Shown: positions 32,359 to 41,226 of the stretch, piece after piece | Position numbering within the stretch: position 1 is the stretch's first letter | Layout: each line of letters opens with the position of its first letter | Assembly: GCA_017501465.1 (NCBI GenBank) | Contig: JAFVWY010000003.1 | Coordinates: 1 to 48,892, forward strand | Reading direction: 5' to 3' | From: Bacilli bacterium | GTDB taxonomy: Bacteria; Bacillota_I; Bacilli_A; ML615J-28; CAG-313 | Length of the DNA: 48,892 nt | Notes under the pieces: model-generated | Told to the model about the DNA's origin: nothing | The model's input: the letters and a program-made list of their open reading frames with translations, nothing else | Database searches by the model: none | Translations under genes and position numbers: made by a program

Positions 32359-32385
32359 AAAAAGAGAGATTAAATCTCTCTTTTT
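32359..32385. terminator. Bidirectional terminator after the nucleoside kinase gene
   Basis: AAAAAGAGAGAT, TAA loop, ATCTCTCTTTTT between convergent genes ending at 32358 and 32390. Confidence 0.85.
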
Positions 32386-34731: not shown

Positions 34732-35946
34732 TTAGAAGAAATCTTCTTCATCTTTAATAACTTGATAGTTCTTATCGCTAGTTAAAACAATATGTTCAAT
34801 ATTTGAAATAGCCTCATCAATTAACTCTTCATAATTAATCTTATTTTCTAAGCTTTTCGCAACATCTAAACGTGGTTTTATTTGAGGATGTTTTGGAACA
34901 AATACCGTACAACAATCTTCGTAAGGTTTAATTGAAATTTCATAAGTACCATATTTATAGGCTTTTTCAATAATATCTTTTTTATCTAAAGTAGCAAGTG
35001 GACGAATAATTGGCATATTAGTAACTTCATTAATAACAGAGATACTTTCTAAAGTTTGACTAGCAACTTGACCAATATTTTCGCCATTGACTATGACTAA
35101 AGCTTTTTGATTTTGTGCTACTTTTTCTGCAATACGATACATCATTCTTCTCATAATAGTAATTCCATAATCATCTCTTATGTTTTGATATATTGCATCT
35201 TGAATTTTTGTAAATGGTACAACGTGTAAGAGAATTCTTGCATCTTTTTTATAATTAGTAACTACTTGTAATAAATCTACTACTTTTTGTAGTGCCATAT
35301 CTGATGTATATGGAGGAGACGCATAATGAATGGCTTCAATATCCATTCCTCTTTTAACCACTTCAATTCCAGCAATTACACTATCAATACCACCACTTAT
35401 CATCAACATTGCTTTACCTAGAGTTTGACTTGGTAATCCGCCTAAACCAAGAGTTGAATCAGTATATATAAAACTTCCTTCTTTTCTAACATCAACATTA
35501 ATAGTAATATCTGGATGATGAACATCAGCTTTTAAATTTTCAATATTCTTAAATAAATGTCTAGAAATTTCTTTTGTAATCTCTAATGAAGTCATTGGAA
35601 ATAGTTTATCTGCTCGATTAGTTTCAACTTTAAAAGTTTTATTTTGATAATCCATTTGACTTAATACATCCAATGCTAATGATTTGATTTGTTCAATATC
35701 TGAATCACATCTTTTTACTTTACTAAAAGAATAAATGCCGGGAATCATTTTAAGTTTATCTTCAACTAATTTAGCATCTGTTCCATTTAAGATACAGTAG
35801 AATCTCATATAATCAGATTCAAAAGTAACATTAGGAAAACACTTTAAGGCATTCTTAATATGAGTATTAACTGATTTAATAAATTGATTACGATTAGCTT
35901 TTTTTAAACTTAATTCGCCATATCTAATTAAAATATGATTATACAT
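34732..35946 (-). CDS. thiI: tRNA 4-thiouridine synthase ThiI
   Basis: Protein of 404 residues: N-terminal ferredoxin-like and THUMP domains (residues 1-165) and a PP-loop ATPase (MLMISGGIDSVIAG near residue 180). A C-terminal rhodanese domain is lacking, as in most Firmicutes. It makes s4U8 in tRNA, accepting persulfide sulfur from the cysteine desulfurase encoded 9 bp upstream. The cysteine pair in KPYEDCCTVFVPKHP is the conserved CC site near the end. Confidence 0.96.
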   Translation of the reverse strand: MYNHILIRYGELSLKKANRNQFIKSVNTHIKNALKCFPNVTFESDYMRFYCILNGTDAKLVEDKLKMIPGIYSFSKVKRCDSDIEQIKSLALDVLSQMDYQNKTFKVETNRADKLFPMTSLEITKEISRHLFKNIENLKADVHHPDITINVDVRKEGSFIYTDSTLGLGGLPSQTLGKAMLMISGGIDSVIAGIEVVKRGMDIEAIHYASPPYTSDMALQKVVDLLQVVTNYKKDARILLHVVPFTKIQDAIYQNIRDDYGITIMRRMMYRIAEKVAQNQKALVIVNGENIGQVASQTLESISVINEVTNMPIIRPLATLDKKDIIEKAYKYGTYEISIKPYEDCCTVFVPKHPQIKPRLDVAKSLENKINYEELIDEAISNIEHIVLTSDKNYQVIKDEEDFF

Positions 35947-35955
35947 AAAACATAC

Positions 35956-37080
35956 CTACTTTGTTATATAATTTCTTAGTTCATCAACAAGAATATCAAT
36001 TTCTTCAAAAGTATTTAAATGAGATAAACTTATTCTAATACTAGTAGTTGATAATAATTGATCGTTTGTGATAGCATAGATGGTTTTTTCTGGTTTTTTA
36101 GTTTTAGATCCACATGCAGAACCAATTGAAACATATATTTCTTTTTGTTCTAAATAATGCATTATAGTTTCTGCATTAAACTCCTTAATACTAATATTAA
36201 ATATAAATGGACTGGCATATTTTGTATTTGTATTAATTGCTATTTGATCTATTTCTTTTATCTTATTCTCTAAATATTTATTTAATTCTAAAACTTTATT
36301 AAAATGTTCACTTTGATATTTAACAGCATTTTGAATTGTTTTTGCACAAGTAACACTTGATGCTAAATCAATAGTACCAGGTTTAATGCCTAATTGTTGA
36401 TTAGCTCCTACTAAATGATTAGTAAGATTAATCTTATTATTATAAATTAACGCTCCACTTCCTTTAATTCCTTCTAGTTTATGAGAACTCATTGTGAATA
36501 AATCAATTTCATTAAAATTAAAATCTGGTTTAATTTTCCCTAAACCTTGAACACTATCAACATGTAATTTACATCTTGGATAATCTTTCAATATTTTAAC
36601 TATTTCTTTGATTGGTTGAATTGATCCAATAATATTATTAACCCACATAATAGAAACTAAGATGGTATCTTTATTTAAACTACTTTTTAGTTGTTCTAAG
36701 TCAACAATACCAAATTCGTTTACATCTAGATAAATAACATCAAATCCTATTTCTTCTAATCTTTTAAAAACATTATAAACAGATGGATGTTCAATTTTAG
36801 ATGTGATTATTCTCTTAGTATCTTTTAAATAATTATTACAAATACCAAATATTGCAAGATTGTTAGCTTCTGTAGCACCTGATGTAAAAATAACATTATG
36901 ATTAGCTACACCTAAACTTTCTTTTACAATATTTTGAGATTTAATTAATAGGTTATTAGCTTTTAATGCCACATTGTATGCACTACTTGGATTATACCAA
37001 TATTCACTAGATACTTTATTGTATAATTCCAGTATTTCTTTTGTAGGCTTAGTTGTTGCAGTTGAATCAAAGTAAATCAT
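35956..37080 (-). CDS. Cysteine desulfurase (NifS/NifZ type)
   Basis: PLP enzyme of 374 residues that takes sulfur from cysteine as an enzyme persulfide. PLP-binding lysine in SSHKLEGIKGSG, N-terminal FDSTATTKP, and the catalytic cysteine in SIGSACGSKTKKP. It is followed by thiI, as in the Bacillus nifZ-thiI pair, so sulfur transfer to tRNA thiolation is its likely task. Divergent from the TSCPD gene, sharing a promoter element. Confidence 0.93.
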   Translation of the reverse strand: MIYFDSTATTKPTKEILELYNKVSSEYWYNPSSAYNVALKANNLLIKSQNIVKESLGVANHNVIFTSGATEANNLAIFGICNNYLKDTKRIITSKIEHPSVYNVFKRLEEIGFDVIYLDVNEFGIVDLEQLKSSLNKDTILVSIMWVNNIIGSIQPIKEIVKILKDYPRCKLHVDSVQGLGKIKPDFNFNEIDLFTMSSHKLEGIKGSGALIYNNKINLTNHLVGANQQLGIKPGTIDLASSVTCAKTIQNAVKYQSEHFNKVLELNKYLENKIKEIDQIAINTNTKYASPFIFNISIKEFNAETIMHYLEQKEIYVSIGSACGSKTKKPEKTIYAITNDQLLSTTSIRISLSHLNTFEEIDILVDELRNYITK

Positions 37081-37100: not shown

Positions 37101-37129
37101 ATTATATCTAAAAAGCATTAATTTTGCAA
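37101..37129 (-). promoter_or_regulatory. Promoter of the desulfurase-thiI operon
   Basis: On the minus strand TTGCAA (37124-37129), 17-bp spacer, TATAAT (37101-37106). The -35 hexamer is palindromic and is also the -35 of the opposite promoter. Confidence 0.7.
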
Positions 37130-37152
37130 ATATAATTAAAAAATTATATAAT
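37124..37152 (+). promoter_or_regulatory. Promoter of the TSCPD gene, sharing its -35 with the opposite promoter
   Basis: TTGCAA (37124-37129), 17-bp spacer, TATAAT (37147-37152); the ATG at 37183 has GAGGTG upstream. Confidence 0.7.
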
Positions 37153-37182
37153 GAAATTACAAAAATATAAAGAGGTGAATAC

Positions 37183-37437
37183 ATGAAACATTTTGAATAC
37201 CTTCCATCTCCTATGGTATGCTGTAAAAAAATTGCTTTTGATATTGATGATGAAAAAAGAATTTATAACTTAGTATTTACAGGTGGATGTAATGGGAATT
37301 TAAAAGCAATTGCCAAACTTTGTGAAGGTCAACAAGCTGAACAAATTATTGTCTTATTACAAGGAAATACTTGCGGGATGAGAAATACAAGTTGTGCAGA
37401 CCAATTAACAAAAGCAATTAGTTCTGCTTTAAATTAA
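37183..37437 (+). CDS. TSCPD-domain protein (TIGR03905-like)
   Basis: Protein of 84 residues with cysteines in MVCCKKIAF, TGGCNGNL, KLCEGQQA, GNTCGMRNTSCADQL. The last segment is the TSCPD motif also found at the ribonucleotide reductase C-terminus. The stand-alone family is uncharacterised and often metal-linked by its cysteines. It is read with the next gene (1 bp gap). Confidence 0.8.
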   Translation: MKHFEYLPSPMVCCKKIAFDIDDEKRIYNLVFTGGCNGNLKAIAKLCEGQQAEQIIVLLQGNTCGMRNTSCADQLTKAISSALN

Positions 37438-37438
37438 T

Positions 37439-38155
37439 ATGGAAACTAAACAAATTATTGATTTAGTTAATAATGACTTATCAATTAAAGAATCGATTGG
37501 AACTAGAAAAGAAAAAACTATTCATCAGTTTTTAAAATACTTTATATCAAACAATTCTAAGAATCATGAAGTTCATATTGATAAAAATATTGTTGATGTT
37601 TTAATCGATAATCATATATATGAAATTCAAACCAAAGGCTTTAATAATCTAAGAATTAAACTTGAAAAACTACTTCCTAATTATTTAGTGACAATTGTAT
37701 ATCCAGTTGTCTATACTAAACTAATTTATAAAGTAGATAAAAATGGTGAAGTGGTTGATATTAGGAAATCTCCTAAAAAAACTCATCCATTATCTATAGG
37801 TGAAGAACTATATAAAATTAAAAGTTTTTTAAAACATCCAAATCTTTCTTTTAAAATAGTAGTGTTTGATGTGGAAGAATATGATACTACCAGAGTTAAT
37901 AGAAGAAAACAAACTAGGCTTTCTAAAATTGATCAATATCCAAAAAAAATACTTAGTATTTATGATATTAATAACGTTTTGGATTGGCAACAACTAATTC
38001 CTGATATGAAAGATTTTTCAACAAAGGATTTTATGAAAGAAACTAAACTTTCTTTGAAAAAAGCTTCCCACGCATTAAATGTTTTAAGATACTTAGAAGT
38101 TATTTGGGTAACTAATAAAAAAGGTAATGCCTTTATTCATAACATAAAAAAATAG
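37439..38155 (+). CDS. Unnamed protein with possible PD-(D/E)XK nuclease core and C-terminal wHTH
   Basis: Protein of 238 residues. Residues about 40-75 (HEVHIDKNIVDVLIDNHIYE then IQTKGF) show the D...ExQ(T)K pattern on adjacent strands typical of PD-(D/E)XK nuclease-fold proteins. Residues about 190-235 resemble a winged helix (STKDFMKETKLSLKKASHALN then RYLEVI). A basic middle segment (TTRVNRRKQTRLSKIDQYPK) could bind nucleic acid. No named family was recognised; nuclease activity is an inference from one motif. The start has almost no untranslated gap after the TSCPD gene. Confidence 0.6.
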   Translation: METKQIIDLVNNDLSIKESIGTRKEKTIHQFLKYFISNNSKNHEVHIDKNIVDVLIDNHIYEIQTKGFNNLRIKLEKLLPNYLVTIVYPVVYTKLIYKVDKNGEVVDIRKSPKKTHPLSIGEELYKIKSFLKHPNLSFKIVVFDVEEYDTTRVNRRKQTRLSKIDQYPKKILSIYDINNVLDWQQLIPDMKDFSTKDFMKETKLSLKKASHALNVLRYLEVIWVTNKKGNAFIHNIKK

Positions 38156-38180
38156 TCTATACTTTTGTATAGACTATTTT
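38150..38180. terminator. Bidirectional terminator at the TSCPD operon end
   Basis: AAATAGTCTATAC, TTTT loop, GTATAGACTATTT covering the stop of the plus-strand gene and ending before the convergent minus-strand gene. Confidence 0.85.
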
Positions 38181-38182
38181 TA

Positions 38183-41203: not shown

Positions 41204-41226
41204 AAAAAGCTCTTTGAGAGCTTTTT
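41204..41226 (-). terminator. Terminator of the DegV operon
   Basis: AAAAAGCTCT, TTG loop, AGAGCTTTTT overlapping the degV stop codon, followed on the minus strand by T-rich sequence. Confidence 0.75.

Follow-up and report, generated by a model that had tools for sequence, protein, structure and literature searches.

The window is the whole stretch of 48,892 nucleotides that we analysed, from a Bacilli bacterium. Within it, a 102-base gap separates a cysteine desulfurase gene and thiI, read leftward, from a gene for a small TSCPD protein and a further open reading frame, read rightward. A GAGGTG-like ribosome-binding stretch lies immediately upstream of the start of each first gene. The features of the region are as follows.

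34732–35946, minus strand: thiI, tRNA uracil 4-sulfurtransferase (TIGR00342, above its cut-off)
35956–37080, minus strand: cysteine desulfurase, NifS/IscS-like, Aminotran_5 (profile matches)
37101–37106, minus strand: -10 hexamer (TATAAT) of the predicted leftward desulfurase-thiI promoter (sequence and promoter scan; invariant in the family)
37115–37127, no strand: conserved GCA-N8-GC element, a candidate operator overlapping the -35, GCATTAATTTTGC in the window and GCAAAANTTTTGC in genera g3 and g4 (sequence comparison)
37124–37129, no strand: shared palindromic -35 hexamer TTGCAA (invariant in nine distinct family sequences)
37147–37152, plus strand: -10 hexamer TATAAT of the predicted rightward TSCPD promoter (sequence and promoter scan; 5/6 positions invariant)
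37183–37437, plus strand: TIGR03905-family TSCPD protein, 84 aa (profile matches above cut-offs)
37439–38155, plus strand: 238-aa open reading frame without profile match; among the loci seen, it runs in the direction of TSCPD in the window's genus alone

The first-pass annotation of this DNA, made from the letters alone, had called the rightward genes a 'TSCPD/nuclease-like operon'. The co-directional pair stands for the window's genus only: homologues of the 238-aa frame were found at 10 loci, on the same strand as TSCPD at two and on the opposite strand at eight, and in other genera they face TSCPD. We rejected the nuclease assignment, as no Pfam or NCBIfam profile matches the protein. Hairpins resembling terminators lie at 38148–38181, 32359–32385 and 41204–41226, each scoring on either strand, and 8 terminator-like sites were counted over 10 kb, against 1.9 in shuffles.

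On the plus strand the gap reads ATTATA (37101–37106), 17 bases, the palindrome TTGCAA (37124–37129), 17 bases and TATAAT (37147–37152). The promoter scan recovered an outward-pointing TTGCAA-17-TATAAT on each strand of 37101–37152. That the geometry is exact, with a perfect TATAAT 17 bp off each side of a palindromic TTGCAA, had been claimed in the first-pass annotation, and both the sequence and the scan bear this out. Measured against a housekeeping-sigma promoter, the -10 hexamer is a perfect TATAAT on both strands, and the -35 position 17 bp upstream is filled by TTGCAA, which matches TTGACA at 4/6 positions. The core elements of the two promoters overlap in the sequence, one -35 serving both, and the layout is thus one of overlapping divergent (back-to-back) promoters, probably mildly coupled.

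A hexamer with two mismatches to the consensus might be doubted as a -35 element, and the window's own genome offers an internal measure. TTGCAA-17-TATAAT occurs 28 times there, against once for the backwards pattern; TTGACA-17-TATAAT likewise occurs 28 times, against 2 backwards, so that at spacer 17 the two hexamers are equally frequent. Among the 88 TTGCAA...TATAAT pairs with spacers of 5–34 bases, 28 fall at spacer 17 and the other 29 spacings together account for 60. Because this peak is so sharp, we take TTGCAA to be a -35 element; by its spacing statistics, it acts as a genuine one in this genome. Simple arithmetic shows that it is also the sole palindromic hexamer starting with TTG, and therefore the obvious candidate where one box must be read in two directions.

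We compared the locus across the window's family. TSCPD is present in all 15 family genomes, and in 10 of them, from 5/6 genera, the desulfurase is divergent from it. Conservation of the symmetric box in relatives had been put forward in the first-pass annotation as a check, and it holds: the exact geometry recurs at nine of these 10 divergent loci, the tenth (L019) being one base off with TATACT. The gap varies from 92 to 129 bases in length across the family loci, and the box-to-box distances are constant. After removal of one of two identical sequences (L009), nine distinct family sequences share 23/52 invariant columns, including 17/18 box positions. Family TSCPD proteins are 54–77% identical to that of the window, and unconstrained intergenic DNA should therefore have diverged.

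Genomes in which the two promoters do not overlap provide a natural contrast, with the palindromic box found only where they do. Throughout genus g2 (five genomes), TSCPD lies behind thiI and is read in the same direction. Its promoter there has TTGAAA as the -35 in three genomes, TTGACA in one and no clear hexamer in one; read by eye, the desulfurase upstream region carries TTGAAG in three, TGGAAG in one and no clear -35 in one, 17 bases from TATAAT. The sister family f2 resembles the window in gene order, desulfurase-thiI and TSCPD being divergent in 14/15 loci (a contig end truncates the fifteenth, L026), but it differs in having no shared box, the exact geometry being found in 0/14. By our own scoring rule for promoter picks, the two f2 -35 hexamers start 7–46 bp apart in the 11 rows with plausible picks, rows L003, L025 and L029 being set aside for implausible ones, and 0/15 f2 TSCPD promoters have TTGCAA. 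Taken together, TTGCAA stands at the TSCPD promoter in 10/10 overlapping and 0/20 non-overlapping cases (g2 and f2; Fisher test), a contrast whose rows are related and which rests on about two evolutionary changes, roughly one gain and one loss. TTGCAA at the predicted TSCPD promoter thus accompanies overlap, and the palindrome goes with sharing.

As for the direction of change, a desulfurase tree puts g2 next to g3 inside the family (support 99/97); row L077 in that tree duplicates the L007 desulfurase and is mislabelled f2, and the g2–g3 placement is independent of it. Since g2 is nested in this way, the shared box probably predates g2 and was probably released once g2 separated the genes. 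In one f2 row (L011) the TSCPD -35 is TTGCTA, a single change from TTGCAA. We infer that the box was borrowed from TSCPD by the promoter of the desulfurase.

We weighed several other accounts of this locus. That it is a chance pattern is extremely improbable. TATAAT-like words are admittedly common in AT-rich intergenic DNA, and the generic promoter scan, which by itself says little in such DNA, marked 60 sites in 10 kb against 77.8 expected from shuffles. Against chance, dinucleotide shuffling of the 102-base gap gave the shared-box geometry in 0/300,000 trials, ATTATA-17-TTGNNA-17-TATAAT occurs only once in the 1.56 Mb of the window's own genome, at the window site itself, and the layout is conserved in the family. 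The shuffles and the conservation together rule chance out; the layout is more than chance, and conservation is the strongest evidence for this. A scan of the same genome for general enrichment of shared boxes found none. It is also quite improbable that the desulfurase is expressed mainly from another promoter, such as the minus-strand TTTATA-17-TATAAT at 37171–37143, with the shared box serving TSCPD alone. This candidate scores 10/12, like the shared-box promoter, but it is the leftward ATTATA with its 17-base spacing that is invariant in nine distinct sequences. In the right spacer, where part of the alternative leftward -10 would fall, no column is invariant.

The same asymmetry of the spacers raises the question of whether the constraint lies mostly on a regulator site (GCA-N8-GC) that overlaps the -35 and acts on one promoter or on both, with the palindrome belonging to that site. 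In the family, 6/17 columns of the left spacer are invariant against 0/17 of the right, and mean pairwise identity is 0.69 against 0.44. Left-spacer conservation centres on the GCA at 37115–37117, which makes an inverted repeat with the TTGC of the -35 box. Joined to TTTTGC, this GCA gives GCAAAANTTTTGC, perfect at the locus in 6/15 family genomes. Three g2 rows (L022–L024) and four f2 rows (L003, L004, L005 and L011) also have GCA at this spacing from the -35 of TSCPD, which suggests that the element goes with TSCPD. The available text on Acinetobacter UmuDAb supplies a precedent, a single repressor site over two adjacent -35s (PMC7273328). As the left spacer is conserved beyond what a core promoter needs, an operator may explain part of the constraint, and a regulator may bind the candidate GCA element. 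As the main explanation, however, we think an operator rather unlikely. Within the window's genus the repeat is not perfect, no regulator was identified, and an operator does not require two TATAATs at 17 bases. Nor is a multi-gene regulon supported, as the window's own genome has one GCANNANTTTTGCAA copy, and of the four other perfect GCAAAANTTTTGC copies in the family (two in G005, one each in G002 and G009) the two inspected both lie inside open reading frames. A perfect AAGCAA-N5-TTGCTT as the ancestral operator was tried and discarded; with at most one mismatch allowed, it falls at the TSCPD promoter in only 2/30 loci (L003 and L011), a match in L007 aside.

We return to a pair of housekeeping-sigma promoters that face away from each other on a single palindromic -35, driving desulfurase-thiI leftward and TSCPD rightward, a reading to which we give a probability of roughly three in four. 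Sigma region 4 would read TTGCAA in either orientation, and each polymerase binding event would commit the shared box to one gene. Assuming seven bases after the -10, the predicted starts lie at ~37094 (minus strand) and ~37159 (plus strand), ~65 bp apart. Since both promoters read the box, any change in it would alter the two together, and purifying selection would thereby hold the box and the spacer on either side fixed. In footprints, a bound polymerase extends well upstream of its own -35, and would hence lie over the other promoter's spacer. Simultaneous occupancy should thus be excluded, and on steric grounds we expect polymerase to be unable to fill both promoters at once.

Whether such exclusion has regulatory consequences is a separate matter. 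The first-pass annotation had proposed that the two operons exclude each other or are held at a fixed ratio. Its single symmetric -35 for two promoters is upheld by the spacing peak and the conserved geometry; the exclusion or fixed ratio sits poorly with the nearest experiments found, on E. coli promoters with a -10 in common, where, in the available text of Warman et al. 2026 (PMC12825309), basal transcription is too low for competition and interference appears only when one direction is activated. By analogy we expect weak coupling at the window locus, with competition slight at ordinary activity and noticeable if one side were strongly activated. The stronger view, that the layout is kept because competition for the box ties or opposes desulfurase-thiI and TSCPD expression as a switch or fixed ratio, could draw on its conservation over five genera, on the fact that the two polymerase sites overlap sterically and on the activated interference in the available E. 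coli account (PMC12825309), yet we judge it unlikely. The same account describes no competition at basal activity, g2 lost the layout yet kept both genes, and the f2 genes are divergent without a shared box; from g2 and f2 it follows that the genes do not in general require a fixed link.

The layout is also found at other gene pairs, cca|DAGK being the most notable. Exact ATTATA-17-TTGCAA-17-TATAAT occurs in 11/392 sampled genomes of the phylum, against 0 for the backwards control; with 13/13 spacers it occurs in 0/392 (one genome for its own backwards control), and a TTGACA-centred pattern in 1/392, as does its backwards control. The 11 genomes comprise three from the window's family, four from genus g131, two from g79 and one each from two other genera, and because they cluster by genus they represent only five or so independent places. 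Seven of the eight sites outside the family lie between divergent open reading frames; L207 does not. The flanking pairs, named by Pfam, are cca-like|UPF0029 in the four g131 genomes (L200–L203; Pfam on L200 only), deaminase|HAD hydrolase in L204 and IPP transferase|NLPC_P60 in L205 and L206 (Pfam on L205 only). We take the L204 deaminase to be tadA-like and the IPP transferase of L205 and L206 to be miaA-like. Each of these divergent shared-box pairs in the phylum, that with thiI included, has a gene likely to act on tRNA, which could be coincidence. A second symmetric TTGCAA site was noted in a relative (L074, 1501–1553; G008:C8:55324-55376), with one 18-base spacer and lying between open reading frames on the same strand.

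A scan of a species-genome collection, read among the matches listed and without a matched control, gave at least 119 stretches with the pattern, 80 of which were listed as loci. Thirty of these lie in divergent gaps, or 37 if over-extended starts from the simple ORF caller are allowed for. A divergent cca|DAGK/YegS-like pair flanks the shared box at 10 of the 80 (L083, L085, L087, L103, L111, L129, L135, L140, L143 and L149), nine from records titled Clostridia/Clostridiales and one Firmicutes. At an eleventh locus (L096) only cca was seen. The cca|DAGK loci have the identical symmetric layout, with quite different spacer sequences. Their ATTATA-17-TTGCAA-17-TATAAT between divergent genes is identical to that of the window, and their genes and organisms are unrelated to it. 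The same symmetric layout is seen in a related group (L110, L115, L127, L131, L152 and L159), mostly titled Chloroflexi/Anaerolineales; the two that were scanned, L115 and L159, are flanked on one side by a DeoR-type regulator. Neither the desulfurase, thiI, TSCPD nor the 238-aa frame was found at the 80 listed loci.

Recurrence hints at a class of shared-box promoters. Citing desulfurase-thiI|TSCPD, the clostridial cca|DAGK pair, cca-like|UPF0029 from a second family of the class and a DeoR-type pair in Chloroflexi, we tentatively suggest, as a possibility on the doubtful side, that exact-dyad TTGCAA pairs form a recurring second bidirectional class, selected at particular gene pairs in unrelated lineages, in which one binding decision would divide transcription. 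If one symmetric -35 does serve two genes, the orientation of polymerase would be a simple, regulator-free means of coupling two expression levels. The return of the layout at cca|DAGK and further pairs suggests a possible role for -35 symmetry, beside -10 symmetry, in shaping bacterial divergent promoters.

We found no description of a single shared palindromic -35 in the open-access literature, older subscription papers on overlapping divergent promoters lying outside its scope, and two described systems come close. In Acinetobacter, the umuDAb and ddrR promoters are likewise divergent, their -35 elements lying next to each other in a short stretch, but in the available text these are two separate hexamers beneath one repressor site (PMC7273328), where the window has one shared palindrome. 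The second comprises the bidirectional promoters of E. coli and Salmonella described by the Warman/Grainger group, in which, as far as the available text goes, DNA symmetry likewise offers two opposed, mutually exclusive polymerase orientations (PMC12825309). Those promoters share a -10 and their opposite-strand starts are 7–25 bp apart, which in the available text is also how they are defined (PMC10268837), whereas the window shares a -35, has two separate -10s and has predicted starts ~65 bp apart; in the available text the group does not term separate divergent promoters bidirectional (PMC12825309). The window layout would thus work like a bidirectional promoter yet falls outside that definition.
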